IMG/VR virus record: IMGVR_UViG_3300010885_039949
Coordinates: 1 to 44,475 of that record
Origin: a virus
Length of the DNA stretch: 44,475 nt
Direction: 5' to 3' (one strand)
The first letter of the stretch is position 1. Every line of letters starts with the position of its first letter. The notes beneath the pieces were generated by a model. That model had not been told where the DNA came from. It saw nothing but the letters and a program-made list of their open reading frames with translations, and made no database searches. This document shows, piece after piece, positions 14,770 to 32,949 of this stretch. The translations under genes were made by a program, and so were the position numbers.

Positions 14770-17700
14770 TTATATTGTTTGTATTTTTATACTATCTGTT
14801 TTACTGCATATATTATCGGTAACGATTACGCTGTATGTTCCAGCAGATAAACCAATTATTGTTTGCGTTTTTTCACCATTGCTCCAAATATATGTTGGTG
14901 TACCTTGAGAGCCCATAACGGAAACTGTTGCAGTACCATCATTTAATGCGTAACTTTTATTTGTTCCAGAAGCTTTAATTATTAACGCACATTCATTTAA
15001 TACTTGTCCACCAGTACCAGATGGTCCAACAACATTTATTAAACCTATAAATTCTGAACCACTATTCATTTGAATTGCATATGCAGTTGTAAAAGTATGC
15101 TCATCGTACAATTTATATACTGAATCACTACCTTTAAGCACTGTCGTATTTATTTCCACATCACAAGTTGCACCTGTTGCTGGACTTAATACATTTTTAA
15201 AATTAGGTGTACCAAATAATAATGTGTTATTTTTATATTTAAATTTTTGTCCATCAAAAATAGTATTGGTATAAACTTTTGTTGACCCCCATATTGTAGT
15301 TGCTGGGATTACTTGTTCTATTAAGTCAGTCCAATAATTACCAATTAAATTCGCAAATTTATCAATTGAATAATAATTAAATTTAGAGCTATTTGTTTTA
15401 CAAAAATTTAAACTATTCATATATCTATCGTATAATAATCTCAGTGTTGGATATGATGATAATGTTTGTCTTGATTTAACATCAATTAATTCTGATGTCA
15501 TATAATACTCAAAATCTTCTATTGTTGTTATTGCACTTAATGGTTGTGTTAGTAATCCTTGAACATCAATGTTTGCATCGCCACAATATTGACTACAACA
15601 ATATGTTTTAGGTAAACATGCTGTAACTGTTGAATTTGTAGTATTAGTCGTATATCCACTTGAAACTATAGTCTGACCAGTTATGGTATATGTTACGCAA
15701 CTTAAATCAGTACAGTATCCAGTGGTAGTTACGCTATTGGTATTATTTGTTACTATTATTGGTTCTTTTAATAATCGAGTACACGATGGGACTCCGCAAG
15801 TATTTAATATATAATTCTCATTTGATGGGCATGAATAACCAAGACCTACACCATAATTAAAATATTCACCAACCTTATCACCAGTGGTAAAAATTGCATT
15901 TGCACCAGATTCGCTTAAATCAGTGGCATTATATAATGTTGAAAAATTGGTCGGATTATAGATTTCAGCAGCAAATGCTGTTAAATCACCTGAATCCCAT
16001 CCTTCCATTTCGATAATATTCAGTCCAGAATTCAAATAAATTGGAAAAACGCTCCACTTTTGAAAATTAACCATGATATCAGTATTAAAATTTGCTACCA
16101 ATACCCCATTAATTTTAAATCTACATCTATTATCCGCTGCCAAACCAATATAATATGTTCCACCATTTGCAATTTCGACACATTGTGAGAATCCTGCCCA
16201 ACTATTTACAAATGCTTTGATACCAGCATTATTTAACCTACCATTGCCACTAAGGCTCAATGATGACCAAAATGAACTACTGTTATTAATGGAATTTGCT
16301 ATAATTACCTTACCGTTTGCGTCAACTAAATTACCATTAGGGCTATAATTATATGGTAATGCGCTATCCGATGTAATTTCTGGGTAAAAATATGTGCCAT
16401 ATATTCCGTAATGTAATCCAGATTTATCACCTGCTGTAATTATTCTACCAGTACCTAAATACGTTGGTGCAATTGATGTGATTCTTTGACATTCGTCATT
16501 TGCTGGTGTTGCAGAAAATCCAATAGGGCATGTATAGGTTGTTGATGTATATACTACAGTGCTAGATGTTATTGCTGTTACTGGACAACAATTACCAGTA
16601 ATAACACTAGTACTAGATGTTATTGACGTAAAAACAACTGGTTGATTACCAATTGATATTGCATCCTTAACACATAATGTTGTACCAATTGTATTACCAG
16701 TTAATAAACAATTATTATCTGATATGTAGGACCAAACATCAGTTTCAACAGCTGCTGCAATATCAATATCTAAATCAATTTCTTTTGTGTTTATAATTTG
16801 ACGTTCGTCATTAAGATAATAATCTGTTTGTCTTATTGGTTGTGAATCGTCTACGTTTGCAATATTAAACGTTCTATGTGTTGTTTCAGTATTTCCAATC
16901 CACGACTTTTTATTGTCGATAATTCTGTCTAATTCAAAACCTGGTGATTTTGTTAAAAATATGTCATTTCTTACAACTTTTTTACAATTTCTATTTAGTT
17001 TAATATTATCTAACATTAAACAAACATCAACACATACACCACTAAGTTTAATCGTAAGTTTTATTTTTTGATTTGTTATAGCGCTTAGTATTGTATTGTT
17101 TGCAATTTCAGTACTAAAATTTATCCAATTAGATGCAAATGAATCACTGGGAACACCACTTAGACTTGTTAATATTTGTTGAATAAATGGTTTACATGTT
17201 GATGTTGCATTTACTTGATTATTATATAGATTCAAATCTGTACAGCCAGTAGTGTATGCATTTTCGGCACAAATATAAAAACCACTAGAACTACCACCTG
17301 AAATTAAATACTTTTCTAAGTTATTTGCTCCAATTGGGGCAAAAAATTGTTCTTTATAAATGCTATCTAATACAATACTTGTTTGTGTTGTTTTCACAAC
17401 ATCTATGGTCATTGATGCACTAAGATTTTCAAAAATGCTATTAAGTGTATTGCAATTTCCAGTATTTTTATTATTAATAAAATTGGTTAATGTTTCGCAA
17501 TTAAACTTAAACATATAATCAAATTCAATACCTAATGTACATGTTTCATCCGTTAGTGTATAAAATATACTACCGTCATTACCCTTTGGATTTAATACTA
17601 AATTAAATGGTGTTGTATAATCACAACCATTAGAATTTTGACTTGACCATCTACATTTTTGTGTTTTAGTGTCAAAATAAGCCCCTTGACCTAATATTTC

Positions 17701-17847
17701 ACAACAAGGTTTTGTTAATGCATATGGTGCTAACTTTCCTGTTGATGGCGATATCGTATATACTGATATCGTACCGTTTGAATTGTTAACGATTTGTCCA
17801 TTATTAATTAATTCTTCTCTTGTTTTACACGCTTTTAGTGGGTTCAT
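14770..17847 (-). CDS. Giant modular virion adhesin with PA14/GLEYA-like module and SprB-like C-terminus
   Basis: A 1025-residue protein. The N-terminal 300 residues are cysteine-containing beta structure of unknown type. Residues about 436-691 carry the same PA14/GLEYA-like module as the neighbouring 886-residue protein, bounded by [12 protein letters not shown] and [13 protein letters not shown]. The last 75 residues ([48 protein letters not shown]) closely follow the SprB repeat pattern of Flavobacterium gliding adhesins: DGxAxVxVxGG-PxYxWSNGxxT...AGxYxVxVTDxxC. I infer a surface-binding tail component. The gene sits in the virion cluster, 41 bases downstream of the 884-residue gene. Confidence 0.8.
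15775..16540 (-). repeat. Duplicated PA14/GLEYA-like module, copy B
   Basis: This is the second copy of the module described at 13255-14010, here encoding about residues 436-691 of the 1025-residue protein. The flanking protein sequences in the two genes are unrelated, so the similarity is confined to this cassette. Confidence 0.88.
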
Positions 17848-17888: not shown

Positions 17889-20543
17889 TTAAACATATAT
17901 GCTATTACACGGTATTTTTTCTTGTGTTCTTGACATATATGTTTTATTTATTATTGAATTGTCGGTATCAATGTCATTAATACCCTTATTGGTTAATCGA
18001 CATGCGTATCCAAAATCAGTAGTTGATGCTGAAATGTATATTGGTGTGCTATAGCCATCACCAATACAATTACAGCCATCTTGAGATGTTAATCTTGTTA
18101 TACCATCGGGTGAAATAAATACAATGTATTTTGATGTGTCATTTGGTAAATAAATCCATTTTTGTGGTGACAATAACCATTTACAAGTTACTAAACAACC
18201 ACAAGTGTTTTTAGCCGAATTACAACAAATGTATCCACTATTTACTGCGGTAAATGGTTCTTCTGTACCACCCGTACCAACAAATTTATCATAGTAATAT
18301 GGTGTTTTATTACTTGAACTGCAACATTGTTTATCAACAAATTCTGAAGTGTAATATACTGGGCTACCACTTGTTGGGTAAATCGTACCGTCAAAATTAT
18401 ACTGATAAAAATTATAGGTATAAAATCCATTTTTATCAATTATTGATGTATTAGCAATATCCTTACTACAATTATGTGTAACCCCTTCGTTTTTACTAAT
18501 GCAAATACTTAAAGATTTAAGTTTTGTTTCATTACTATTACATCCGCAATCTGTTTCATCCTTACGTTTTTTAGGGTCTTGTGTAATGGATGTATCTACA
18601 ACGTAACAATTTGCAAAATCAACACCGTTTTCGGTTGAAATGTCAATATATGTATTACCAGTATAAGATGTCATTGTACCGCTTTTATAGTTGGTAAATA
18701 AGTTACTCGTGCTAGTTGTTGATGTTTCAGATGTTATTGTAACTGCTGAAAAATTAGGTATTAACTCTTTAAATTGATTAATGTATTTATACCCACCATC
18801 ATATGGGCCAGCGTGTGGATTATTTCCAGATGTTATGTCTAATGAAGCATTACTACCACCAGTTTCCCTATACCATAATCCATTATTTTGAAAATACATT
18901 TCAGGTGTATTGTATAACGGAGCTGGATACCCACTAAGGCTTATTGGATATTGAGATATGTCATTATTTCTACCGTTTAATACTAATGCTTTTTGAAATA
19001 CATCGATATCTATTTTGTTTTCCGCTAAATAAACATACTCATTGAATGTTATTAATCCTAATGGGGTACCTATAAACTTGAACATAAATTCAATCGCTTT
19101 ACGAGTACCTTTTGATTTCCAAATCCAAGGCGTGTTTAAAATAATTCGCCTCCATAATTCTATATCAGCTTCAACGGCTGTTAAACCAACGGTTTGTCCA
19201 CTATATGTTGATGGTTTTGGTTCTAAATAACTTTTTAAAAGATTATTTTCTAAAACTGATGAAATTACATCCCAACCCAATATTCTAGAAATATTTTTAA
19301 GATATATGTCGGGAGTATTATCGTATTTGTTATAAGTTACTGTGTTTGCAAATTTTATTCCTGTTACAAAGGTATTTAACTTATCAAATTCAGCACCATA
19401 TATTGTTAATGTTTTATTCATTTTTTGACCTGATGTATCTTCATCTAATGGGTCAAAATGAATATCTGTGGTATCAAAATCTGTTATTGATTCTGTTACT
19501 AAAAATCTAACAATAAGATTACTTGTTGTTAAGTCAAAATTTGATGATATATCTAATAATGTTGTTGCATAATCACTATATTCTTCGGTATCAAAATCAA
19601 TATTATAACCATCGGTTGTGGGCCATGTAATATTTTTATTGGTATAAACAAGTGCACCTGAATCTGATTTTATCGTAAAATCAAAATTAGCCGTAAATTT
19701 TGGATAGACTAATCTGTTTAGTAAATAATATTCAAAATCTGGTAATGTATTATAAAATAAATTTTCATTTATTTTATTGGGTTTAATATAATAAATTGGA
19801 TAACCATTATCAATAACATTTGAAAAGACATTCCCACTTACGCTAAGATAAATATAATCATCATTAATAGTTGTTGCACCTGTAAATCCAATAAGGTCAT
19901 ATTCCTTACTATTAATCATGACCGAATATGAAGCATAATTTGTGATTAAATCTCTTAAGTCATTGCTAGCATTAAATGTTGCAGCTAATGAACCATTTTT
20001 AAGATAATTGATTTGAAATTTATTATTAATTACATTTGTACTAATTTTAAAGTTAGATTTGTTTTCAAAAACATTAAAATAATAATTTTCAACAGTATAT
20101 CCTGATTGCGTCACATATAATGGTGCAAATGAATATGTTGGATTCATATATAATGCTGCTGGCCAATTTGTAATAATATTTTCTAATGCAACTCTAGCAA
20201 ATTCTTTAAATGAACCAAAAAGTGCATAGTTTGATAGATTTCTTTTATCAAGATTTAATAATACACCTGCATTATTGGTTAATAATTCTAACGCACTTTG
20301 ATACGTTAAATCTAAATCAGTAAGGCTAACAAAATTAGAAAAACTACTAGTAGCAAAATTTTTATTAATTTTAGGGTCAAAATTTGTCGTTATTGCAAAA
20401 TTTCCCATTGTAAACAATGGTGTTCCACCAGCGCTAGTTAATTGTAAACCAACTAAATCTGGTGAAAAATTTCTACGTTCAATTTTATTATCGTAAACTA
20501 TATTTTGTGAATACCCTGCAACTTTTATTCTTTCGTTACTCAT
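17889..20543 (-). CDS. Structural (tail/baseplate) protein with cysteine-rich C-terminus
   Basis: An 884-residue protein. A segment in the middle (RRIILNTPWIWKSKGTRKA, then FMFKFIGTP) has the pattern L-P-x-x-x-K-x-KGT-x-x-x-I-x-x-x-x-x-x-x-G-I/T-P. I have seen this in large-phage tail and baseplate structural proteins, so a baseplate role is likely. The last 200 residues are unusually cysteine-rich, with CGC, CC and CNC clusters (for example DCGCNSNE, QCCSSSN, YICCNSAKNTCGC, GCNCIG). This suggests metal binding or disulphides once assembled. The start ATG overlaps the stop of the upstream gene by one base (TAATG). Confidence 0.75.
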   Translation of the reverse strand: MSNERIKVAGYSQNIVYDNKIERRNFSPDLVGLQLTSAGGTPLFTMGNFAITTNFDPKINKNFATSSFSNFVSLTDLDLTYQSALELLTNNAGVLLNLDKRNLSNYALFGSFKEFARVALENIITNWPAALYMNPTYSFAPLYVTQSGYTVENYYFNVFENKSNFKISTNVINNKFQINYLKNGSLAATFNASNDLRDLITNYASYSVMINSKEYDLIGFTGATTINDDYIYLSVSGNVFSNVIDNGYPIYYIKPNKINENLFYNTLPDFEYYLLNRLVYPKFTANFDFTIKSDSGALVYTNKNITWPTTDGYNIDFDTEEYSDYATTLLDISSNFDLTTSNLIVRFLVTESITDFDTTDIHFDPLDEDTSGQKMNKTLTIYGAEFDKLNTFVTGIKFANTVTYNKYDNTPDIYLKNISRILGWDVISSVLENNLLKSYLEPKPSTYSGQTVGLTAVEADIELWRRIILNTPWIWKSKGTRKAIEFMFKFIGTPLGLITFNEYVYLAENKIDIDVFQKALVLNGRNNDISQYPISLSGYPAPLYNTPEMYFQNNGLWYRETGGSNASLDITSGNNPHAGPYDGGYKYINQFKELIPNFSAVTITSETSTTSTSNLFTNYKSGTMTSYTGNTYIDISTENGVDFANCYVVDTSITQDPKKRKDETDCGCNSNETKLKSLSICISKNEGVTHNCSKDIANTSIIDKNGFYTYNFYQYNFDGTIYPTSGSPVYYTSEFVDKQCCSSSNKTPYYYDKFVGTGGTEEPFTAVNSGYICCNSAKNTCGCLVTCKWLLSPQKWIYLPNDTSKYIVFISPDGITRLTSQDGCNCIGDGYSTPIYISASTTDFGYACRLTNKGINDIDTDNSIINKTYMSRTQEKIPCNSIYV

Positions 20544-21460
20544 TATACTTTTGTTATTGTATTAAAATTCTTACTAAAATCTACGTTATTTCTTTGTTCT
20601 CTAATTTCAAACAATGGTGCGCCTGTATATACATCTTTAATTTCATACAAATCATATTGTTTATATATTTCATTATTAAAGTTATATATTGTGTAAATTC
20701 CATCTTCAAGTGATTTACTTTGATTACCAAATAGTGCGTATGCAAGTGTTTCAACATCGTGCTCAACCATTTCAACTTCAATCATTATTGGATTAAAGAA
20801 ACTGTTTGTAATGATTACATCTTGATTTGGTTGTCCAATAAATGGAAATGTATTTGGTTGTACGTTTGATGCTGAATTTGGTGAAATTGTACAAAAAACC
20901 AATGTCGAATTATCATTAAAGCGATATCTAATTGCTTTTTGATTAGTATTGGTAAGATTTTGATTGACAGGTTCGGCTCTATTATTTGAAGTTACAATCC
21001 TAAAAAGATTGTTTATTTTAGCATCTGTTGCTGATGGGTTTAAATATTCAATTCTATAACCAATTAAACCATTATTTTCAAATCTATTTAAAAAGTTATT
21101 AGGTATTGTTGCTAAATCAAATAAAAGTCCTTTAATATCAGGAAATGCTGATAAAACTCCAACATCAACTATTTTAGTTCTTATTTCAACAGGTTTAATG
21201 ATAATTGTGTATATTCCTTTAGTTGAAAAAAGATTTACTGGCAATTTGAGTGTGTACATACCACCAAACATTTCAAAACTTGTTATACCTGAATCTACTC
21301 TATTAGGGTTATTAACCTTTAATAAAACATCATTAGTATTTGCAATTTTGACTAAATTATTACCTATTTTATCTCTAGACGCTGAAAATGTGTAGAATAT
21401 TTCCACATCATCTGGTGTTACGTCTGCTGGTCTTACTATACCATATGTACCGACACTCAT
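20543..21460 (-). CDS. Probable virion structural protein (305 aa)
   Basis: A 305-residue protein beginning MSVGTYGIVRPADVTPDDVE and EIFYTFSASRD. It is beta-rich by appearance, with no signal, cysteine cluster or membrane segment. I do not recognise a Pfam family. It lies in the structural run after gp6, separated by 35 bases from the previous gene and sharing a TAATG junction with the next. It is probably a baseplate or tail-tip component, on position alone. Confidence 0.7.
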   Translation of the reverse strand: MSVGTYGIVRPADVTPDDVEIFYTFSASRDKIGNNLVKIANTNDVLLKVNNPNRVDSGITSFEMFGGMYTLKLPVNLFSTKGIYTIIIKPVEIRTKIVDVGVLSAFPDIKGLLFDLATIPNNFLNRFENNGLIGYRIEYLNPSATDAKINNLFRIVTSNNRAEPVNQNLTNTNQKAIRYRFNDNSTLVFCTISPNSASNVQPNTFPFIGQPNQDVIITNSFFNPIMIEVEMVEHDVETLAYALFGNQSKSLEDGIYTIYNFNNEIYKQYDLYEIKDVYTGAPLFEIREQRNNVDFSKNFNTITKV

Positions 21461-21495
21461 ATTATTTATTATTTATTTTATTAATTACTAAAAAT

Positions 21496-22326
21496 TTAAT
21501 TTTTGGTTAAATTATAATATCCCTTATTATATCTTGCTAATTCATTTAAATTTGTTATCTCTGATAATTTTAATTGTCTTTCAAACACAACTGTAAGTCC
21601 TCTATCTATAAATACATCGCTTTTAATTTCTGGTTTGGAAATTATTCCAAATAAATATTCTTCTTTGGTCAATGCTGATAATGAAATATTAGTTTGATTC
21701 CATCCCTCACCAATATATGAAACAGTAGTAACCGTTGTTGCTGTATCATCAATATATAAAAGACCATTTTTTTGATTTAATGTTCCAATATTTAAATCAT
21801 TAACGTCAGCATTAAAAACATATGTTGGATTTGGTAGTAATTGTGTTACCCTATCAACTCCGTTTATTGTTTGACCAGAAAAATTAATATACGTTTCGGT
21901 ATTTGTGTTAAAATTTATACGATATGGTTGATTGGCTCCATAGGCTCTAACATCTTCAATTTTAGAGTCTGTGCTTGCTGTTATTGTTTTATTGCGATAA
22001 TCATAATAATCAGCCTGTGTAGTTCCTGTAGCCCTAATATCAGCATTTAATGTTTGAACAGCGTTTGGTGTAATGCCATTCATAAATGGAAAGGTAATAC
22101 CACTAATTGATAATTTATTAATTAATGGTGTATAATCTACCTTTGTGTCTTGACCTACAAAATTTGGTGTATAGATAATATCTGTGAACATACCCATATC
22201 ATCAATGTTTTGCATTAATGATACATTTATATAAAATGATGTCGCTGTTAATGTTCCATAGGTTGGACTGTTGTAGTTTCTATCAATACAGTCTTCTAAT
22301 AATATTTTTCTTTGAATTAATTCCAT
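21496..22326 (-). CDS. Probable virion structural protein (276 aa)
   Basis: A 276-residue protein starting MELIQRKILLEDCIDRNYNS. It contains many Asn/Thr-rich strand-like segments and ends in a helix (LKLSEITNLNELARYNKGYY). No known domain is visible. Its ATG overlaps the preceding stop by one base. Within the structural cluster, its size and composition fit a baseplate-associated protein; its function is not known. Confidence 0.7.
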   Translation of the reverse strand: MELIQRKILLEDCIDRNYNSPTYGTLTATSFYINVSLMQNIDDMGMFTDIIYTPNFVGQDTKVDYTPLINKLSISGITFPFMNGITPNAVQTLNADIRATGTTQADYYDYRNKTITASTDSKIEDVRAYGANQPYRINFNTNTETYINFSGQTINGVDRVTQLLPNPTYVFNADVNDLNIGTLNQKNGLLYIDDTATTVTTVSYIGEGWNQTNISLSALTKEEYLFGIISKPEIKSDVFIDRGLTVVFERQLKLSEITNLNELARYNKGYYNLTKN

Positions 22327-23177
22327 TATAATGCTTGTATTTGATAAAGATTTATTGTTAAATTCATTAAATTTGGATTATTAACGCTTGAATATTGTAC
22401 ATTTGTTGAATAGGTGGTATCTAAACTATAATAAAATCCTGTTGTATTACGATACAAATCAAATTTTGTATATAGTTTATATATTAAATTATTAATTGGG
22501 TATGCTGATGATGATGTACTTAAATTAAGTATTTTACCAGTTTTGGCGCTAAAATATTGCGCTTTCATATACAAGCTTTTAGGTGGATTATTAACTAAAT
22601 ATTCATCTCTGTATGCATAGATATGGTATCCCTCATAAAAACCTACTGGTGTTGTTAATGGGTTAGATAAAACAAATTTTAATGGAATTTGATTTGCTGG
22701 TTTTGGTTGACCAGCTATTTGTGTTGACGTGCTGCTTACATAATAATCACCACTAGATAAATGACTATAGATTTCTATTTCAGTAACTAAATTTTGTGTT
22801 AATGGATTATCATTATCATAAAACGATAAAATTAACGCACTTTCAGTAAATGCATTTTTTCTAAATTTTATATCATCATTTTTTATTTCAATATCTGAAT
22901 AATATGTTGGTATGTTTAAGTTACCATTTGACCCTAAAAGACTAACGATGTACGTTATTGTATCTACATTTTTTAAATTATCATATACTGGAATAAATCT
23001 AGCTTTTTCATAATCTAATATTGGATTTACGGATTTTTCTATTTCACCATTAACAAATACACGTTCAACCAATTCTGAATTATCAACAAGTTGATATTCC
23101 ATATTTATTGGGAAATCTATGGTTGTTGCTGTTGCACCGCTTAATAAAGATGGGTTTATTTTATAACTAACAAACAT
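22326..23177 (-). CDS. Probable virion structural protein (283 aa)
   Basis: A 283-residue protein starting MFVSYKINPSLLSGATATTI. It is predominantly strand-forming and Tyr/Ser/Asn-rich. I recognise no family. It overlaps the upstream 564-residue gene by 11 bases and the downstream gene by one base. This tight coupling suggests near-equal expression and perhaps a shared complex. Confidence 0.7.
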   Translation of the reverse strand: MFVSYKINPSLLSGATATTIDFPINMEYQLVDNSELVERVFVNGEIEKSVNPILDYEKARFIPVYDNLKNVDTITYIVSLLGSNGNLNIPTYYSDIEIKNDDIKFRKNAFTESALILSFYDNDNPLTQNLVTEIEIYSHLSSGDYYVSSTSTQIAGQPKPANQIPLKFVLSNPLTTPVGFYEGYHIYAYRDEYLVNNPPKSLYMKAQYFSAKTGKILNLSTSSSAYPINNLIYKLYTKFDLYRNTTGFYYSLDTTYSTNVQYSSVNNPNLMNLTINLYQIQAL

Positions 23178-24861
23178 TGCTTGCTGAATTTATTTTAAAA
23201 TTATTTGTCATTGCATTTCCTATCGGGTCAGCAGGAAATTGACCATAATACATATTCCAATTGTCAAATGGGTCTTGTCTTTTAACGTCAAAACAAAAAT
23301 TATCATATATATAATGACAGCCATTAGTAAATGGATAATTTACAATATCAACATTAATGTCGGTTTTTCCAATGTCTAATAAGTCTCTCCAAATATATCT
23401 ACCATCACCTAAATTAACTGCATAATTTGGTATACCTGCCGTAAATTCATCTCCTTGTTCAATATAACTAGAAAAATCTCTTATTTTTAGCCTATAATGT
23501 GAATTATAAAAATATCCTTCAGGTCTGGGACCGCTAGCAACTAATCCTGTGCTAGTTTCTCTGTTTATTGTATTAAATCTATTCATTACATCGGCTAAGG
23601 TTGTTTCAGATAAAGTTGCTACATTATATTCAACAACATCACCATAAAAATCAGCATTATTTATTGTTATATTTGATTGTAATGAATTGTATGAATTTGG
23701 AATTGTTTGACTTGGTGCCGCATTATGAATTAATTGTATTATTGGAATATCTTTTAAATATGGACATGTATTATAATTAATTAAATCAGAAATATCGGGT
23801 GCTTCTATACCTGAAGATACAGACGTAAAAATATTGTTACTATCGGTTTTAATAATACTTAAATATAATTCGCTTAATGGCCTATTTAAATTGTCAACTA
23901 AATTACTAATATCAATATCTTCATTAAAAATAAATTGTGTTATATTATCTGCGTAAATATTTTCAGAAAACGCTAATTTATATATTTCATAATCATCAGA
24001 TTTAATTATATTGCTTGATTTGGTTTTAACTTTAGTGAATTTTCTAAAATAATACTCACATTCAATTCCTTTGTAAACTTTCTTCATTCTACTATCATTA
24101 TCAATAAGAATATTTTGTGATAAAATATCAATACAAAAATAATAATCTTTTAAATCACCATTATCTAAACCAACTCTTTTTACTTCGTAATCGCCATCAA
24201 AATTAGTTCCAGTTATTCTGACTGTACTACCAATAAGTAAATTGTGTCGAATAGGTACCCCTATTGCAGTCATTGGTTTTCCTCCAATTGTAACTGCCCT
24301 TTTACTTATCATTATAATTCCACCATTAATTGTATATTGAGTTTTGTCAGATGCATATGGATATGTTATAGTAATCTCCCAATTTTTCACTCTTTTGTTA
24401 ACAATATTTTTACCATCAGATAAAAATGAAAATCTTTCTCGTTTTGGTTCCATATCATAAAAATTACACAAGCCAGAACCAGTTAAAATAGGGTCAAAAT
24501 ATCCATACCACCCATCAATTTCTTTAAGATGTTTATTGATTGCTTCGGAATATGTTAAATCTTTTTCGTTGTCTAATGAATCGGATAAAAATATTGGAGT
24601 GTTAAACGTTGACCAAGAATTACTTTCTGTAATATTAAATAAAACGTTACTGATTAATGGGTTAAACTTACCTGAAATTCTATAATATGTTGATGATTGT
24701 CTTTCTTTATTAAATTGTTTTCCAATATCAAGTGTTCTATTCATTTCATCTGGTGGTAACAATCTTTCACTACCATTAAATTGAACATTAAGGTATGTAT
24801 TTGTATTTACTGCCTCTTTTGTAGTATATTCTTTTAATATGTTTTTTACTCTAATATCCAT
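23167..24861 (-). CDS. Probable virion structural protein (564 aa)
   Basis: A 564-residue protein beginning MDIRVKNILKEYTTKEAVNT. It appears to mix short helices and strands and has the aromatic-rich stretch DGWYGYFDPILTGSGLCNFY near residue 120. I see no catalytic motif. Its start overlaps the stop of the 1232-residue gene by one base (TAATG). By location just downstream of gp6 it is a baseplate or tail-tip protein of unknown role. Confidence 0.72.
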   Translation of the reverse strand: MDIRVKNILKEYTTKEAVNTNTYLNVQFNGSERLLPPDEMNRTLDIGKQFNKERQSSTYYRISGKFNPLISNVLFNITESNSWSTFNTPIFLSDSLDNEKDLTYSEAINKHLKEIDGWYGYFDPILTGSGLCNFYDMEPKRERFSFLSDGKNIVNKRVKNWEITITYPYASDKTQYTINGGIIMISKRAVTIGGKPMTAIGVPIRHNLLIGSTVRITGTNFDGDYEVKRVGLDNGDLKDYYFCIDILSQNILIDNDSRMKKVYKGIECEYYFRKFTKVKTKSSNIIKSDDYEIYKLAFSENIYADNITQFIFNEDIDISNLVDNLNRPLSELYLSIIKTDSNNIFTSVSSGIEAPDISDLINYNTCPYLKDIPIIQLIHNAAPSQTIPNSYNSLQSNITINNADFYGDVVEYNVATLSETTLADVMNRFNTINRETSTGLVASGPRPEGYFYNSHYRLKIRDFSSYIEQGDEFTAGIPNYAVNLGDGRYIWRDLLDIGKTDINVDIVNYPFTNGCHYIYDNFCFDVKRQDPFDNWNMYYGQFPADPIGNAMTNNFKINSASNVC

Positions 24862-25886
24862 TATAATTTTACTATTTTTTCACAACCAGCATTATCAGTT
24901 GCAACAATTCTTATGGGTAATGTTCCAATATATTGATACCTATAAATAATATTTTCTGGTGCATTTGTATCAATAATGCTATCAATATATGTATATTCAA
25001 TATCATTTATTGTAACAAAATAATCTGGAACTCCAGATGTGACATTAAACTCAACTAATTGTTCACGTGTTTGAAAATCAAACATACTATTATTTGTTAT
25101 ATTAATTGTTAACCCACCTGTAATAGTTATTGTTGTCTCTATGGATTGTGGTTGTGGTTGACCTGAATCTTGAACAACAATTTTATATACCGATGGGCAT
25201 AAATTTGTAAAACTTGTGGCGTTATCAGATATTAATGTATTACCATTTGTTGAAGTATTGTATGTTGTTACTGTATATGGATATGTACCACCACCAACAT
25301 TAAATGAAAATGAACCCTTGCAACTTCTGCAACTATTTGATTTAACTATGTTAGTAATTGTTAATGATTGTGGACCAATAATATTAACTGTTGATATACA
25401 TGTTTGGCCAAGTGAATCAGTACTTAAAAATTTATATGTTCCCACAACTAAACCAGTTAATTGCTGATTTATTGGTTGTGTTTGATATGTATACGTTGAA
25501 ACTAATGAATTATTAATGTCAAATATTTCTAACGTATATGGTAACGTACCACCATCAATTTTAACAATTTCAACAATTGAATCAATAGATGTTTGTGTTG
25601 ATGGTTGTTGTAATACAGAAAATGCGCAGCTTAATCCTATTGGCGCTCCAACTGTAACTTCTTTAATTACAATTGTACCTAAATTGTCACTAGCAGTTAT
25701 TTGATACTTACCAAAAGCCAATCCAGTAATTGAACCACTTGGTGGTACATTAGTTGTAGTAGTGGTTATATTTGTATAGCTAACATCAATACCTATCCAT
25801 GTATATGTAAATGGATGTTTTCCGCCAATAAACGTAAATAAAATTGAACCATCAGTTGCGCCATTTATAGATACTGGAATTGATGT
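24861..25886 (-). repeat. Four tandem SprB-like beta repeats (C-terminus of the 1232-aa protein)
   Basis: These cover protein residues about 892-970, 975-1062, 1064-1150 and 1150-1232. The repeats share a GG-x-x-PY-T turn (GGKHPFTYTW, GGTLPYTLE, GGGTYPYTV, SGVPDYFVT) and a terminal GxYxxxxxDxxG or IVATDNAGC motif. They are diverged at sequence level. The SprB repeat assignment is by motif pattern only. Confidence 0.68.
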
Positions 25887-28559
25887 CGTGTCAATAATAA
25901 ATTCATTAGTTGTGTTGATAATTTCATTAGTGGTTCCAGTAGCAGTTTCATTAATACATGAAATAAAAAATTTAGAATTTAATTTATCTAATGCTGTTTT
26001 TCCTGGGATGATACCAAAATACATATAAAAAGAATTTTTGGTTTGAAAACTAATATCATAATTATTAAGAGGTGTTATCCAACCTCTAAATTCATCATAT
26101 GCTTTTCCATTTGTATCGTGGGATTCGGTTATATTAAATGATGTACCATCACTTGCTAATAAAAGATTATATGGTACTGTTGGTACACTTGCTATTCCTG
26201 AACCTAAAGTATTTAGTAAGTAAAAAGAATCTCTAACATATCTATTAATACTTGTTAATGTATCAATAGTATCATTTGTATTATAAATTTCATTTATTCC
26301 AATATATGGTGGATTAGGTACTGGTACACCGTTATATTCTGGACTATCAACATTAATTTCACATTGTCTTCTTATATTCTTAGCGTTTAAGTCTTCAAAC
26401 TCAACCCCTGAAACACAAGATACACTAAAAAATAATCCACTACCGTATTCTGATTTAAACATCCCTGGAACAATTGTTTGGTCTGAAAATGCAACAGTTG
26501 TGTTTTCTTCCATGTATGATTCAGCTTGTAATGGTGGAATTTTATATGAGGTATCGGTTAGATATTGAATTATTTTAGGTAATCCTTGCCAATCGCACTC
26601 GTTTATTGACCCTAAGTTTGTTATATCTGTTGGGAACATTTTAAAATTTTTACCATTCAACAAAATTGGAGGGTAATACAATTCATTTTTATACTTAACC
26701 AATAATCCATTGATAAATGTTTCACTAGCTAAATCTGTTCTTCGATTGTAAGTTGTATCCCTTAATTTGCTATCCTTACAATTGTTGTAACCTGTACCAC
26801 CATCATAATCATTACAATATGTTTCGCAAAATTTTTCACTACCTCTTCTAGTTTTTTTATATTTTAATTGATAATAGTACAAGGTACCGTTAATCCAATC
26901 ATTATAAAAGTCAAATTGAAATAAATTTAGTTCGTCAACTAATGCTGCCTTAACACAATCCAAATACATATCAATTGTATCATCCCCACAACCAGGCTTA
27001 AATGATTTATCACTATCATCAGGGCATTTTAATTTAATTGCAAGGTTTGCTAAACCCTCAAATGGTTTAAGGCCAAAAAATGAAATATACGCAATAAAAC
27101 ATATAATTGAATTTACCGCAGCTACAATTGATGTCAATACAGCAAATATAAAACAAATAATTGTAAATAATACATTACCCTTAACAGAGGTTCTATTATA
27201 TGGCATTGGTGACTTATCACCAACGCAACCGTCAACATCTTTAATTCCTGTGTATGCTTTAATTTTATATGGACTGGATAATGATAAAACATTTTTTTCT
27301 GTTCTAGAAATAAAACTTCTTACTGTATAGATTTTATTCCAATAAAAATCTCTAAATGTGTTTTTATTATCTACTGTTGATTTATCAAAACTAAAATCAA
27401 TTTCATTTTTTGTATTTGGGTTATGTGGTATGATATATTTACCTCTAGTACGTAACCTGCCACTTCCTTCACCTTCATCCATACTTATTCGAAATCTAAC
27501 TCTAGCTCTTGTTGGAATACCCATATCTGTTGAATCTGAAGGAATTAAGGTACCATCCTCGCCTGTTACAACATAATCAAGATTCATCGGTATTTGATAC
27601 GCCCACGCTCCATTTTCATCAATAACTCTTCCACCTTCAACGTCAAATCTTTCAACTTGACCATCAATTGTTTTTCTGAGCATCTCAATGGTGCCTTCTC
27701 GTGATATTTGTTCGCACATTAATCCAAGCCCTTTTCTCGGACGACATCTTTTATTAACGCTGTTTTTTCGGCTATCCCCAAAAAGACTACCCATAAAAAT
27801 TGCGGTTGGTCTTGCGTTGTAATTAAGGTCAATATCTAATCTATTTATACCAATAACACAGTTGTCAATATCACCCCAAAATGGCTTTACATTAACGCCA
27901 ATATTTGCCGATTTTACTTGAATAAGTGAATTAAGATTTTTACTAGCTTTAAATTTTGTTGCACTATAAAACATTTTTGCTGGTGTGCCTTGTTCAATAA
28001 GGTCGTATGGCTTTTGTGACATAATACCAATATTTGATATATCTGCATCCACGTGAACAGTATGGCTACCCAAAGGTACTCCAAATATCATAAAATCACC
28101 AGCATGATTTGTTTGTGATGTGAATTTATAATATTTACAATAAACTTGAAGCATTTCGTCATTATCTAGTATTTCTCTTTTTGATGGAAATGTGCCAATT
28201 GGTGTATAACAATCATTTTGGCTATCAGATTCTTTTGGTAATAAATTGTATCGTATACCATTACTATCAACATCGTTAACCGTTTCATATGGATATAATC
28301 CAAATATATTTGGATTATTTTTATCTACATCATCAACTGGAATAAAAACTGAAACCTTTGCATTTGGAATCCCAAATCCATTATTTATTGATACACGACC
28401 AACTATAACACCATAATCAGAACAAAAAGTTTCATATACCTTATCCTGACTAATATTTAATGACAAAATTTCTATAAAATCAAAATCTTGTTCTAATTTC
28501 ATATTTAAGTATTTGTCTGTGCCATTTGGCGTTGTTCGTATTCTAATATTGTTAGACAT
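24861..28559 (-). CDS. Giant virion protein with CarboxypepD_reg-like, transmembrane and SprB-like regions
   Basis: A 1232-residue protein. Residues about 48-75 (YGVIVGRVSINNGFGIPNAK) resemble a carboxypeptidase-regulatory-like beta-sandwich. Residues 463-496 form a strongly hydrophobic stretch (VLFTIICFIFAVLTSIVAAV continuing to ISFFG), long enough for one or two membrane helices and unusual for a tail protein. A cysteine-rich section follows (CPDD, CETYCND, NNCKD). From about residue 892 there are four beta domains with SprB-like endings such as LAFGKYQITASDNLG and LVVGTYKFLSTDSLG. I infer a host-surface and membrane-interacting tail component. It sits directly after the small membrane protein gene. 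Confidence 0.8.
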   Translation of the reverse strand: MSNNIRIRTTPNGTDKYLNMKLEQDFDFIEILSLNISQDKVYETFCSDYGVIVGRVSINNGFGIPNAKVSVFIPVDDVDKNNPNIFGLYPYETVNDVDSNGIRYNLLPKESDSQNDCYTPIGTFPSKREILDNDEMLQVYCKYYKFTSQTNHAGDFMIFGVPLGSHTVHVDADISNIGIMSQKPYDLIEQGTPAKMFYSATKFKASKNLNSLIQVKSANIGVNVKPFWGDIDNCVIGINRLDIDLNYNARPTAIFMGSLFGDSRKNSVNKRCRPRKGLGLMCEQISREGTIEMLRKTIDGQVERFDVEGGRVIDENGAWAYQIPMNLDYVVTGEDGTLIPSDSTDMGIPTRARVRFRISMDEGEGSGRLRTRGKYIIPHNPNTKNEIDFSFDKSTVDNKNTFRDFYWNKIYTVRSFISRTEKNVLSLSSPYKIKAYTGIKDVDGCVGDKSPMPYNRTSVKGNVLFTIICFIFAVLTSIVAAVNSIICFIAYISFFGLKPFEGLANLAIKLKCPDDSDKSFKPGCGDDTIDMYLDCVKAALVDELNLFQFDFYNDWINGTLYYYQLKYKKTRRGSEKFCETYCNDYDGGTGYNNCKDSKLRDTTYNRRTDLASETFINGLLVKYKNELYYPPILLNGKNFKMFPTDITNLGSINECDWQGLPKIIQYLTDTSYKIPPLQAESYMEENTTVAFSDQTIVPGMFKSEYGSGLFFSVSCVSGVEFEDLNAKNIRRQCEINVDSPEYNGVPVPNPPYIGINEIYNTNDTIDTLTSINRYVRDSFYLLNTLGSGIASVPTVPYNLLLASDGTSFNITESHDTNGKAYDEFRGWITPLNNYDISFQTKNSFYMYFGIIPGKTALDKLNSKFFISCINETATGTTNEIINTTNEFIIDTTSIPVSINGATDGSILFTFIGGKHPFTYTWIGIDVSYTNITTTTTNVPPSGSITGLAFGKYQITASDNLGTIVIKEVTVGAPIGLSCAFSVLQQPSTQTSIDSIVEIVKIDGGTLPYTLEIFDINNSLVSTYTYQTQPINQQLTGLVVGTYKFLSTDSLGQTCISTVNIIGPQSLTITNIVKSNSCRSCKGSFSFNVGGGTYPYTVTTYNTSTNGNTLISDNATSFTNLCPSVYKIVVQDSGQPQPQSIETTITITGGLTINITNNSMFDFQTREQLVEFNVTSGVPDYFVTINDIEYTYIDSIIDTNAPENIIYRYQYIGTLPIRIVATDNAGCEKIVKL

Positions 28560-28565
28560 AATAAC

Positions 28566-28964
28566 TTATTTAATTATTGTTATTTCGTTAGCATCAACGG
28601 GTTCGTATTCCAAATTTGATAAATTATCATAGTCTTTGTCATCTTCAAAGTTGTCACCATCATCTTCTTCATCATCAAATTCGTCATCATTGTCTTCAAA
28701 ATTTTCATCTTTAAACAATTTTCTACCTAAATACACAAGTGCTGGAACTAAATTAATTCCTCTATTGGTGACCGTAGTTATAAATAAAGTGTAAACTGTT
28801 ATTGGAATTATTAATGGTACGATAATGATGCATAATAAAAGAAATATTATAAATCTTGCAAGATAATTATTTATCTTTTTAAGTGTTGACCCTTCAATTT
28901 TAGAATTATCTATAGATTCATTATATATTTCCGAATTTGTTTTTTTACATGATTTACACGACAT
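28566..28964 (-). CDS. Small membrane protein with CxxC head and acidic tail
   Basis: A 132-residue protein. It starts MSCKSCKK, with a CxxC pair that could bind metal. Residues about 37-75 are highly hydrophobic (FIIFLLLCIIIVPLIIPITV, then YTLFITTV), giving one or two membrane helices. The C-terminal third is strongly acidic with long D/E runs (EDNDDEFDDEEDDGD). No family is recognised. It sits between gp6 and the 1232-residue protein that also has a membrane stretch, 6 bases from the latter, suggesting a shared job at the membrane, either during assembly or injection. Confidence 0.75.
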   Translation of the reverse strand: MSCKSCKKTNSEIYNESIDNSKIEGSTLKKINNYLARFIIFLLLCIIIVPLIIPITVYTLFITTVTNRGINLVPALVYLGRKLFKDENFEDNDDEFDDEEDDGDNFEDDKDYDNLSNLEYEPVDANEITIIK

Positions 28965-29018: not shown

Positions 29019-30833
29019 TTATTTTACACGTACAATTACATCGCTTACGGGTTCTAAAATTTCAAACATTGTTGTTGGTTCACCAAAAAGAGTATATTCA
29101 CCAGAAACATCGATTTGTCTTGTTGATAAATCTACATAAGGTTGTGAAATTTCATTAGTTGAGTATTTTCCACCCACAAGATTATATACCCTCAAATCAA
29201 TTACATTAAGTACACCTGCAACATTATTAATTGTTTCAAGTAAATTAGACAAATAAATGTTTTGTCCCATGTCAAATTTATTTATATCCATATATGTTGT
29301 AATACTAGATATTACTTGACTAATAATTTGTGATTGTGGATATTTTTTATCTATAAACAAATCAACTTGAAATGATAAATTAATAATTTTACCATTAGAT
29401 ATTTCAATATAATCATTAAGCATTCTATAATCAGAAAGATATGCTGTTATATTTTCCTTTAATGTGGTTGTTGACGAATTGTTTAATTTGCCGTTAGAAT
29501 CTAAGCCAATTATGTAAATTTTTATTTTATTTTGTTCTTCAAATACCCCATTTCTAAATGGTACACCTAAACGACCTGGCATTAAAGAAATTCTTGATTG
29601 ATAATCCTTTACTGTTACTGCTCTATTTTGTGCCGCAAAATTATATCTTACAAGATTTCTAATTTCTTCAATTGATGGTTCATCTTTTCCACCCAACGCA
29701 GGAATTGGATTATTTACCTTTAATGAAGTTTTAACTAAATTATTGGTTGATTCATTGGCCCCATTTACTGTTATATTTACTAATCCAGTTGAAGTAATAA
29801 TTCCTTGACCTAAATTTGTATCTAATCCACCACCAACTCTATATTTTACAAATAAAGTTGTATTTGGGCTTAATGTTGAACCTAATGATAAATTATTAAT
29901 AAAATCACCAATTTGATTGACAAGATTTGGGTTAATATCAAAATCAGATAAAGAATTAATATTTTGTGTCCCACCACCAAATATTAATTTCATAAATCCT
30001 AAATCAGTAAATTCTGTAATAAATTTTTTATTTGTTGTTATATATTTGCCAGGTTTTATTGATGGATTATCTGACATTTTGTTAAAATCTTCAATGAATA
30101 TTTTATCTTCAGCCAATGAATCCATTTCAAACCATTTGTTATCAACATTTAAAAAATCACTATTGCTTGGGTCTGTTACAAAGTTAATTCCTGATAAAGC
30201 AATTACATCTGTAATTGATAATATATTGTTGTCTGGTAAAATAACTTCTAAAAACGGAATAACATCGCTATTAGTAATAACCTTTTTAAATATTTTACTA
30301 TAGCCATTTACAACCATTTCTCTTTTAACTAATGTGTAATTAATTAATGTACCATTTGAATTAAAATTTGGTATGATTAATCTATTTGGAATCCCACCTA
30401 TTGTAAATGGACTTGAAAAATCTATATCGTATGTTGTTTCAAAAACTTTACCAGCACCACTTACTTGAGCATTAGATTGAATAATTGGTGCATACGATAC
30501 ATCAAATGTATCACCAAAACTTGGAACCGTAACCGAAAAATCAACAATTGTAACCGATGGCTTTTTGCCTGGTATCTTAAGTCCAAACGTTCTTGCCATT
30601 GAAAGAACTGAACTTCTTTGTTGAGCATAATCAATTTGTGTCTCTTGAAACATTCTATCAGTATTGAACGAAATCATATCGCCAACAGCCGCATTTAATT
30701 CTAATAACATCATACCAACCGATGCGTCATTAAAATCATTGAAAATATCTGGATAATATTGTTTTACCATATTAACCAAATCAATTCTTATGTCTGAAAA
30801 ATTTCTACTTGTATAGTTAACAATTTGGGTCAT
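29019..30833 (-). CDS. 6: Baseplate wedge protein, T4 gp6-like (gpJ family)
   Basis: A 604-residue protein. The N-terminus (NYTSRNFSDIRIDLVNMVKQ, then DASVGMMLLELNAAVGDMISF and ETQIDYAQQRSSV) is characteristic of the gp6/gpJ baseplate family, which forms the ring holding the wedges. The C-terminal part (AAQNRAVTVKDYQSRISLMP) also follows the family: a conserved turn before the final domain. The T4 protein is about 660 residues. It lies near gp25, its partner in the wedge core, but a homing endonuclease gene separates the two. The start is preceded by an AT-rich stretch with no SD. Confidence 0.9.
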   Translation of the reverse strand: MTQIVNYTSRNFSDIRIDLVNMVKQYYPDIFNDFNDASVGMMLLELNAAVGDMISFNTDRMFQETQIDYAQQRSSVLSMARTFGLKIPGKKPSVTIVDFSVTVPSFGDTFDVSYAPIIQSNAQVSGAGKVFETTYDIDFSSPFTIGGIPNRLIIPNFNSNGTLINYTLVKREMVVNGYSKIFKKVITNSDVIPFLEVILPDNNILSITDVIALSGINFVTDPSNSDFLNVDNKWFEMDSLAEDKIFIEDFNKMSDNPSIKPGKYITTNKKFITEFTDLGFMKLIFGGGTQNINSLSDFDINPNLVNQIGDFINNLSLGSTLSPNTTLFVKYRVGGGLDTNLGQGIITSTGLVNITVNGANESTNNLVKTSLKVNNPIPALGGKDEPSIEEIRNLVRYNFAAQNRAVTVKDYQSRISLMPGRLGVPFRNGVFEEQNKIKIYIIGLDSNGKLNNSSTTTLKENITAYLSDYRMLNDYIEISNGKIINLSFQVDLFIDKKYPQSQIISQVISSITTYMDINKFDMGQNIYLSNLLETINNVAGVLNVIDLRVYNLVGGKYSTNEISQPYVDLSTRQIDVSGEYTLFGEPTTMFEILEPVSDVIVRVK

Positions 30834-30929: not shown

Positions 30930-32558
30930 ATGATAAAAAGTAATAAAAATTCATTTATTGAAAGGTCTAATAATATTCATAATTATAAGTATGATTATTC
31001 ATTAGTTAACTATGTAAATAATGCATCTAAAGTTGAAATTATATGCCCAAAACATGGGATTTTTTTAAAGACTCCTGTAAAGCATATAAATTCAAAACAA
31101 GGTTGTCCAGATTGTTCAATAATTAATACACATAATCTTCAACGAAAAAATATTATAGATTTTATAAATGAATCAAATATCATACATAATCATAAATATG
31201 ATTATTCATTAGTAGAGTATAAAATAAATAGGGAAAAGGTAAAAATTATATGTTCAATTCATGGTATTTTTGAACAAACGCCTAGTAATCATTTAAATGG
31301 AAAGGGCTGTGTATATTGTGGGGGAACATCAAAATTAGACACGAATTTATTTATTCATAAATCAAAAATGATACATGGTGATAAATATGATTATTCATTG
31401 GTGGACTACGAAAATACTCAAACAAAAGTAAAAATTATATGCTCAATACATGGTATTTTTGAACAATTACCAAATAATCATTTATCAAAAGAACAAGGAT
31501 GTTATAAATGTTTGGGAATGATAAGTGATACTAACTCATTTATTGATATATGCTCAAAGATGCATAATAATAAGTATGATTATTCTTTAGTTAAGTATGA
31601 TAATATCACATCAAAAGTGGATATAATATGTCCAGAACATGGTATATTCAGTCAGCGTTGCGACTCACATAGAAATGGTTCTGGCTGTATAAAATGTTCA
31701 AATAATGGCATTTCTAAAGAAGAAGTTGAAATTAATGATTTTATTTTATCATTAAATATAAATACTGAAATAAAAAATAGGGATATACTTGACGGAAAAG
31801 AATTAGATATTTACATACCAAATAAATCTATTGCAATTGAATATAATGGTTTATATTGGCATTCAGAACAATTTGTTGATAGAAAATATCATTTAAATAA
31901 GACTGAATTATGTGAAAGTAAAGGAATTAAATTGATTCATGTTTTTGAGGATGAATGGATTTATAAACAAGATATAGTTAAAAGTAGACTTAAAAATATA
32001 CTTGGGTTAACATCTAATAAAATATATGCTAGAAAATGTATAATTAAAAGTGTGATATATAAAGACGTTAAAAAATTTTTAAATGAAAACCATATACAAG
32101 GAGAAACTAAATCTAGTATTAATATTGGATTATATTATAATAATGAATTGATTTCATTGATGACATTTGGTAAAAGACCAATGATAAATAATTTTTCATT
32201 GGAATTAATTAGATTTTGTAACAAATTAAATACTAGTGTTATTGGTGGGGCAAATAAACTATTACAATATTTTATCAAAACATATAAACCAAACGAAATA
32301 ATTAGTTATGCTGATAGACGATGGAGTCAAGGTGATTTATATGAAAAATTAGGGTTTGAATTTATTTCTAATACAATTCCAAATTTCTCGTATATTATAA
32401 ATAAAAAAAGAATAAATCGATTAAAATTTCAAAAACATATCTTAATTAAAGACGGGTATGATGGGAATAAAACAGCTAATCAAATAATGTTAGACAACAA
32501 TATTTATAGAATATATGATAGCGGCAATAAAAAGTATATTTTAAATATTATTAATTAA
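30930..32558 (+). CDS. Free-standing homing endonuclease (EDxHD/PD-(D/E)XK type) with four zinc-ribbon repeats
   Basis: A 542-residue protein opposite in strand to its neighbours. The N-terminus holds four DUF723-like repeats (residues about 9-63, 75-131, 139-194, 202-257), each with HNxKYDYSLV, IIC...HGIF and a CxxC-like pair. They probably bind DNA. A nuclease domain follows, with ELDIYIP (E291, D293), IEYNGLYWHSE (E304, H311) and FEDEW (D341), the pattern of EDxHD homing endonucleases such as I-Bth0305I. The C-terminal part (IGLYYNNELISLMTFGK, RFC, ADRRWSQGDLYEKLGFE) looks like a GNAT-type fold. It sits between gp6 and gp25 and ends 4 bases from the gp25 stop, so it is a selfish element that does not interrupt either gene. 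Confidence 0.9.
   Translation: MIKSNKNSFIERSNNIHNYKYDYSLVNYVNNASKVEIICPKHGIFLKTPVKHINSKQGCPDCSIINTHNLQRKNIIDFINESNIIHNHKYDYSLVEYKINREKVKIICSIHGIFEQTPSNHLNGKGCVYCGGTSKLDTNLFIHKSKMIHGDKYDYSLVDYENTQTKVKIICSIHGIFEQLPNNHLSKEQGCYKCLGMISDTNSFIDICSKMHNNKYDYSLVKYDNITSKVDIICPEHGIFSQRCDSHRNGSGCIKCSNNGISKEEVEINDFILSLNINTEIKNRDILDGKELDIYIPNKSIAIEYNGLYWHSEQFVDRKYHLNKTELCESKGIKLIHVFEDEWIYKQDIVKSRLKNILGLTSNKIYARKCIIKSVIYKDVKKFLNENHIQGETKSSINIGLYYNNELISLMTFGKRPMINNFSLELIRFCNKLNTSVIGGANKLLQYFIKTYKPNEIISYADRRWSQGDLYEKLGFEFISNTIPNFSYIINKKRINRLKFQKHILIKDGYDGNKTANQIMLDNNIYRIYDSGNKKYILNIIN
30954..31700 (+). repeat. Four DUF723-like tandem repeats inside the homing endonuclease
   Basis: The repeat unit is about 55-60 codons. 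The DNA copies share the phrase for YDYSL (recognisable as tatgattattc) near 30990, 31197, 31386 and 31575. Each has a HG(I/F) and paired cysteines, apart from the fourth, whose final pair is CIKC. Confidence 0.85.
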
Positions 32559-32562
32559 AATT

Positions 32563-32949
32563 TTATAAATTTATTATTACAAAGTCATTTATGTCAAAAA
32601 CATTATCTGATATACTATAATCAATTCTTATTGTTGCAACATATTCATTTTCTTGATTATTAGTAACGTATATATTTTTAATTGTTAAATTTGGTAAGTA
32701 TTTTCTAACAGATGCTCTAACTTCTTCTTCAAGGTCAGATAAAGTAAAGTTATCGTTGGGTTCAAATATAAATTTTATTAAATTTGTTCCAAATTCTGGA
32801 TTATATAGTCGTTGACCTTTTGTTGTCAATAACAAATGCATTAAATCGGCTTTAATTGCTTTTTGGTCGGTTGAGTTAAGATTTAAAAAAAATCCTTGGG
32901 GACTGTTCTTAAATGGATAGTCAATATTTATATATTTACCTTTAGCCAT
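32563..32949 (-). CDS. 25: Baseplate wedge protein, T4 gp25-like
   Basis: A 128-residue protein matching the GPW/gp25 family in length and pattern: FFLNLNSTDQKAIKADLMHL, then TTKGQRLYNPEFGTNLIKFI, FEPND, and RASVRKYLPNLTIKNIYV near the end. gp25 links the baseplate wedge to the sheath and shares a core with gp6. It is the first gene of the virion block, just after a bidirectional terminator (33002-33027), so it must have its own promoter between 32950 and 33001. No TAnnTTTG box is visible there. Confidence 0.93.
   Translation of the reverse strand: MAKGKYINIDYPFKNSPQGFFLNLNSTDQKAIKADLMHLLLTTKGQRLYNPEFGTNLIKFIFEPNDNFTLSDLEEEVRASVRKYLPNLTIKNIYVTNNQENEYVATIRIDYSISDNVFDINDFVIINL

Follow-up and report, generated by a model that had tools for sequence, protein, structure and literature searches.

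SprB-type Ig-like domains as a candidate adhesion arm in a baseplate-region protein from uncultivated jumbo phages

The gliding adhesin SprB, a T9SS type B cargo, is exported via its C-terminal sorting domain. Bacterial SprB repeats (PF13573) are carried on secreted proteins, whereas the phage copies described here lie on a baseplate-region protein. Among other Ig-like proteins of phages, the BACON/PKD/Ig proteins of gut phages have been shown to be adhesins, in a paper that makes no mention of SprB (PMC13370021). The UniProt entry A0A6J5LD72, named "SprB repeat [uncultured Caudovirales phage]," reveals that SprB repeats in phage proteins have already been annotated automatically. Among open papers, we found no description of this entry, of SprB repeats in phage virions, or of arrays of them on a phage baseplate protein.

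The window, by which we mean the entire stretch of DNA analyzed, is the viral record IMGVR_UViG_3300010885_039949, with 44,475 bases and 28.6% G+C. Sequence inspection identifies T4-like genes for gp46/47-like nucleases, a RecA-like protein, an ssDNA-binding protein, and a helicase. A B12-type ribonucleotide reductase is also encoded, and no tRNA or Rfam matches were obtained in the window. The reductase (33104-36163, minus) contains an apparent intein with a LAGLIDADG endonuclease (LAGLIDADG_3, 6.6e-14, residues 535-613); the match to the intein splicing domain, spanning residues 326-673, is below the cut-off at 3e-5. Contigs that carry relatives of the 1232-aa protein considered below reach 368 kb, which makes it probable that the window is only a piece of a larger, jumbo-phage genome.

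This 1232-aa baseplate-region protein (24861..28559, minus) consists of a core (residues 1-868) and a SprB-type Ig tail (residues 869-1232). An earlier note, made from the sequence alone, had proposed four tandem beta domains in the tail. Three are certain by both profile and AlphaFold2 model: D1 (25641..25901, minus; residues 887-973; profile 1e-17; model strands E19-26 to E95-102), D2 (25371..25631, minus; residues 977-1063; profile 2.6e-12; model strands E109-116 to E185-192), and D3 (25116..25361, minus; residues 1067-1148; profile 1.3e-10). The fourth, D4 (24864..25109, minus; residues 1151-1232), is partial or divergent, with low pLDDT. The note had set the beginning of the array at base 25886; the boundary lies a little earlier, near residue 887 (base 25901). 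A domain profile from which the window sequence had been left out recovered the protein at E = 4.8e-40. It delimits three domains clearly (residues 889-973, 984-1063, and 1073-1148), and the fourth (1169-1228) scores weakly by itself in the window (E = 0.18); orthologues show the last domain clearly (L004, 8e-10; L064, 1e-9; also L003). The motifs described in the note are indeed present: GG-PY occurs at residues 912 (GGKHPF), 1003 (GGTLPY), and 1090 (GGTYPY), and GxYxxxxxD or a close form at residues 950, 1040, and 1123, with a period of about 85-90 residues. These counts are far above those of 20,000 shuffles of the same 364 residues, which reached the GG-PY count in 0.01% of cases and the GxYxxxxxD count in none. 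The cysteine of D3 (C209 of A2) is invariant across tails.

The AlphaFold2 model of the tail, run with 39 relatives, is all beta, with a mean pLDDT of 81; D1-D3 form three beta-sandwiches mostly above 90, and the fourth region is poorly modeled. In a fold search with this model, Ig/FnIII arrays ranked highest (Z 9-11.6, with large rmsd over multidomain alignments), with parts of GhpA, an adhesin of Aureispira (9flv, 9flx, 9flw), within the first 17 matches. Because they are to generic Ig/FnIII arrays, these matches carry no functional information. No solved SprB repeat structure was identified by sequence; the tail is predicted to be a series of tandem Ig-like beta-sandwiches, for which the comparison fold is that of Ig/FnIII arrays and not the SprB repeat itself.

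Assignment to the SprB family was judged against the curated Pfam cut-off of PF13573, 28 bits. The window copy scores 14.9 bits as a whole protein, 17.2 as the tail alone, and 21.5 in genome mode, and by this curated score it is a divergent relative that is not called a member of PF13573. Several orthologues exceed the cut-off (L008, 56.8 bits; L053, 48.9; L081, 48.7; L006, 32.8; L063, 31.4; L004, 30.8; L023, 29.0), and PF13573 matches 36 of 40 orthologous tails at E<0.001 (best 7.6e-17), with no other family recurring in more than two of the 40. Conversely, a profile made only from phage copies finds a bacterial SprB array in a Bacteroidota MAG (L102) at 2.4e-113, as eight tandem domains each covering profile positions ~4-83. 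Phage and bacterial copies have in common the GG-PPY and GxYxVTVTD motifs, a period of 75-90 aa, and nearly all 83 profile positions; they differ in that bacterial copies have a first cysteine and a WSN turn, both of which the window copies mostly lack. The array is genuinely homologous to the SprB repeat, and its sequences have drifted apart from the bacterial ones. The SprB pattern recognized in the earlier note is thereby upheld for the family, with the window copy itself under the cut-off, and both a SprB match and a beta-sandwich fold were obtained.

When the open reading frames of the window and its relatives were searched, the phage profile matched only the 1232-aa family and three other proteins: the 1025-aa protein of the window, an 884-family protein of L064, and a 395-aa protein of L081. 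The single domain that the note had placed at the end of the 1025-aa fibre-region protein (14770-17847, minus) is real and weaker (14770..14958, minus; match ~14797-14955; residues 965-1017, E = 8.3e-5), and its PF13573 score of 17-19 bits is below the cut-off. The L064 homologue of the 884-aa protein (L064:19029-22733) has three SprB-like domains that are absent from the window copy, so the presence of the domain in this second tail gene is lineage-specific. The 886-aa (11838-14498, minus) and 1025-aa fibre-region proteins also share a long similar segment resembling the carbohydrate-binding PA14 domain (PF07691 in the 886-aa protein, 16.8 bits against a cut-off of 24).

The core comprises three parts. 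The N-terminal part (27810..28418, minus; residues 48-250) is a transthyretin/carboxypeptidase-regulatory-like beta domain with an insertion, for which the PF13620 match is sub-threshold; the comparison of model residues 50-248 with 2nsm (VIA Z 7.1, rmsd 1.9, 79 aligned residues) is weak by itself. It is followed by a strongly hydrophobic, TM-like helix (27087..27173, minus; residues 463-491), modeled as a helix by AlphaFold2, with a Kyte-Doolittle value of 2.75 in the window and 1.8-3.3 in relatives; it is kept in distant relatives as well. The remaining part (25956..27059, minus; residues 501-868) is rich in cysteines, of which C512, C535, C578, C715, and C868 are invariant and C603, C655, and C733 near-invariant. 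The AlphaFold2 core model is confident (pTM 0.84), and its matches in the PDB are to TTL/pilin-like domains only, where Z values up to 7.1 can mean a common arrangement alone.

Orthologues of the core occur in approximately 80 IMG/VR loci, all from uncultivated phage contigs, whereas a search among 50,697 phage records found no relative of the whole 1232-aa protein or of its core. Considered as a possible T4-type wedge protein (gp7/gp10-like), the core gave nothing informative with PHROGs across all its members, apart from one weak tape-measure match in 1 of 48. BFVD contains one true core relative, the unnamed protein A0A8S5LA66 (Myoviridae sp. ctPuP5); A0A6J5LD72 is a weak fold match to the core. 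By wedge protein, the nearest cultured phages are Flavobacterium phage immuto (27%) and Microcystis phage Mel-JY01 (29%). These give no clue to the function of the core, because neither profile searches nor hhalign matched it to them, and the large proteins found at the equivalent position in these phages have no hydrophobic helix.

Gene order around the core is kept as gp25 - gp6 - p132 - core - p564 - p283 - p276 - p305 - p884 - p1025. Two baseplate genes anchor the cluster: a gp6/J-like wedge (29019..30833, minus; phrog_219 8.4e-21, phrog_6 1.9e-16) and a gp25/W-like protein (32563..32949, minus), which was named by sequence and position and has homologues in 73 loci. Directly upstream of the core gene lies the gene of a 132-aa protein with one hydrophobic segment (28566..28964, minus), whose homologue is found in 67 of 80 loci and adjoins the core gene in every one of these 67. 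Downstream, p564, p283, p276, p305, and p884 form a fibre/baseplate region (17889..24861, minus) of conserved order and adjacency. AlphaFold2 and gene order together place an Ig-like fold on a protein of a structural gene cluster. The hydrophobic helix of the core and the one-helix p132 are possibly a membrane-active pair for injection. Between the gp25-like and gp6-like genes, the window has a 542-aa gene (30930-32558, plus) that matches DUF723 and shows weak similarity to restriction endonucleases; since the two baseplate genes are adjacent in 63 of 73 relatives, this gene is probably a mobile insertion.

Every full-length protein with three or more domains, 46 in number, belongs to the main clade, and the order D1-D2-D3 is identical in 46/46; what follows D3 is 57 to 343 aa long. 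Outside this clade, the same core is joined to other tails of 700-940 aa (L065, L068-L071), with a single weak SprB match in L068 only, or to short tails of 24-100 aa (L072-L074, L080), and two MAG contigs (L094 and L098) have the core without the array. Tails outside the clade matched a D1-like Ig domain by hhalign in a single comparison (74.5% probability, E 2.7e-5), a sequence match suggesting that they keep a remote domain of this type. Array-bearing proteins group together in the midpoint-rooted core tree. The domain tree is short and has weak resolution; in it, D1 copies mostly cluster with one another. The capture of host adhesin domains, one of the origins entertained in the earlier note, is not supported as a recent event, given the distribution of D1-D3, with backing from both trees; an old capture is possible.

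Conservation is highest in residues 1-250 and lowest at the end of the chain, with mean identities along it of 0.70, 0.64, 0.40 (helix), 0.47 (cysteine-rich part), 0.36 (D1), 0.33 (D2), 0.30 (D3), and 0.28 (rest). By comparison, the wedge averages 0.71 and the neighboring genes 0.52-0.75, except p132 at 0.35. Among pairs with at least 90% N-terminal identity, D3 identity is 0.52. Attachment proteins usually look like this, with a base that is conserved and an end that diverges and can be exchanged; the fast evolution of the tip could also stem from relaxed constraint and not from selection.

Start-codon context and MAG binning point to Bacteroidota as hosts. In clade genes, Shine-Dalgarno sequences are not in excess (11 observed, 13.6 expected) and A occupies position -3 in 77% of gene starts, the same pattern as reported for Bacteroidetes (PMC6847099). 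Core relatives were binned into Bacteroidales and Paludibacteraceae MAGs; because one each also falls in Prochlorococcus, Mycoplasmatota, and Wolfebacteria records, binning alone is weak host evidence. The Prochlorococcus case, single-cell genome contig L097 (QCKH01000004.1), has a core relative with 47% identity in the best segment and no SprB array, and represents either a co-sorted phage or a different host. A T9SS type A sorting domain (Por_Secre_tail, 47.7 bits, above cut-off; G005:C1:29610-29837 and G004:C1:232631-232858, in an open frame of 633 aa) is present in a protein encoded by two related jumbo-phage contigs (L105 and L106), and such a protein would make sense solely in a host with T9SS. 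A bS21 ribosomal protein (43.8 bits) is encoded at G003:C1:132061-132213 on a related 355-kb phage contig (the record of L065), and bS21 is known from other freshwater Bacteroidetes phages (PMC9723584).

A different use of the domain is seen in LR756502, a 642-kb Mahaphage genome that encodes a 1670-aa SprB-repeat adhesin (LR756502.1:514378-519390; L104:4812-9824). This protein starts with a hydrophobic leader and contains 13 or more PF13573 repeats (E 6.3e-95) and a PKD domain, together with a sorting domain of T9SS type B (CHU_C/TIGR04131, 50 bits against a cut-off of 35). By its domain content, it is apparently a complete bacterial-type adhesin for export by the T9SS of the host. Its gene neighbors are SpoVR-family and glutamate-synthase-like genes, and no relative of the core was found in the examined stretch of LR756502. 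This adhesin is unrelated to the core of the 1232-aa protein and shows the SprB domain in a second role in phages. LR756502 is putatively the 642-kb genome listed among the complete, manually curated ones in the source paper, which gives Bacteroidetes as the predicted hosts of its genomes larger than 634 kb (all of them Mahaphages) and makes no mention of SprB or adhesins in its main text (PMC7162821).

Domain homology, fold prediction, gene context, the conservation gradient, and clade distribution form the basis on which we consider it rather probable that the 1232-aa protein is attached to the baseplate of a Bacteroidota-infecting jumbo myovirus and serves in adhesion, with the SprB-type Ig array as its outer arm. 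The N-terminal two thirds, with the transthyretin-like domain, the hydrophobic helix, and the cysteine-rich part, would join the baseplate beside the gp6-like wedge, and the C-terminal array would project outward and bind the outer surface of the host or its exopolysaccharide, the tip evolving fastest. The array would share its origin with the surface adhesins of Bacteroidota in one pool of domains, would have been gained before the clade diversified, and would then have been inherited vertically. A virion role is our best guess from gene position; presence in the particle, outward orientation, binding, and ligand are inferred. The binding of a host surface, as raised in the earlier note, is plausible from gene context and from conservation that falls toward the tip.

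The same array could also serve as a spacer or a general sticky decoration, with recognition left to the downstream fibre proteins (884, 1025, and 886 aa), an account that we regard as unlikely, though worth keeping in view. A structural stalk would fit the invariant number and order of D1-D3, and the best solved-structure matches of the tail profile are Ig-like proteins of phage decorations and whiskers (5lxk, 8zvi, 9d7z, 9occ); in addition, phage Ig-like domains are able to give general surface adhesion (PMC13370021). However, the segment after D3, so variable in length, is the most divergent, as expected for a recognition tip, and tails are replaced wholesale outside the clade. Doubtful to a greater degree is a role in the infected cell, where the protein would sit in the membrane with the array outside and act, for example, in cell-cell adhesion or superinfection exclusion, with no part in the virion. 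The hydrophobic helix is unusual in a baseplate protein and could have this meaning; it is conserved, is followed by a cysteine-rich region, and has a conserved one-helix partner gene directly upstream, and the LR756502 adhesin with its T9SS sorting domain is an example of such repeats encoded by another huge phage. Nevertheless, the N-terminus has no apparent signal peptide, no T9SS sorting domain was found in the protein, and in most loci the gene has baseplate genes on one side and fibre-region genes on the other.

A specific tie to SprB gliding, which the earlier note had also suggested, is not borne out. We consider it very improbable that the array mimics SprB and docks on the partner or track that moves it, so that the phage uses the gliding machinery, and we give equally little credence to a virion held by or carried along a moving adhesin system (the T9SS/gliding apparatus) before injection. 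In favor of such docking are the homology with SprB repeats and the observation that gliding mutations lead to phage resistance in Cellulophaga and related flavobacteria, with SprB/RemA suggested as receptors (PMC13288928). The repeat is generic, however: one Bacteroidota MAG has ~145 SprB-repeat matches across many proteins, of two rumen-type MAGs, one has five and the other has none, as is true of all 14 control genomes. Because it is common in Bacteroidota surface proteins, the SprB repeat marks a Bacteroidota surface domain and not gliding. Nothing indicates that SprB repeats themselves touch the motor. Furthermore, the 1232-aa protein shares the repeat with SprB and other T9SS type B cargo but has only three to four copies, no apparent signal peptide, and no sorting domain that could be found: the 1232-aa and 1025-aa proteins gave no NCBIfam match to a T9SS sorting domain, type B included, and neither CHU_C nor Por_Secre_tail was detected in the window.

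If surface glycans or T9SS-displayed proteins are what the arm binds, this would offer a testable reason for the phage resistance of gliding/T9SS flavobacterial mutants. In addition, the 1232-aa gene provides a marker for a clade that has no isolate in the 50,697-record phage collection. With the array fixed in a widespread jumbo-phage clade, the adhesin domains of hosts and the attachment arms of phages seem to share one Bacteroidota domain pool.

In relation to known systems, the 1232-aa protein resembles T4 Hoc, T5 pb10, and the BACON/PKD proteins of gut phages in having Ig-like sandwiches on a structural protein, and its tail profile weakly matches phage decoration proteins. It differs from them in the SprB-type Ig family of its domains, in its place as a baseplate-region protein, and in its occurrence in uncultivated jumbo phages. 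Ig-like domains on phages are well known; no paper that we found reports the SprB type in phage particles, and here it is a fixed feature of a baseplate-region protein in a jumbo-phage clade.
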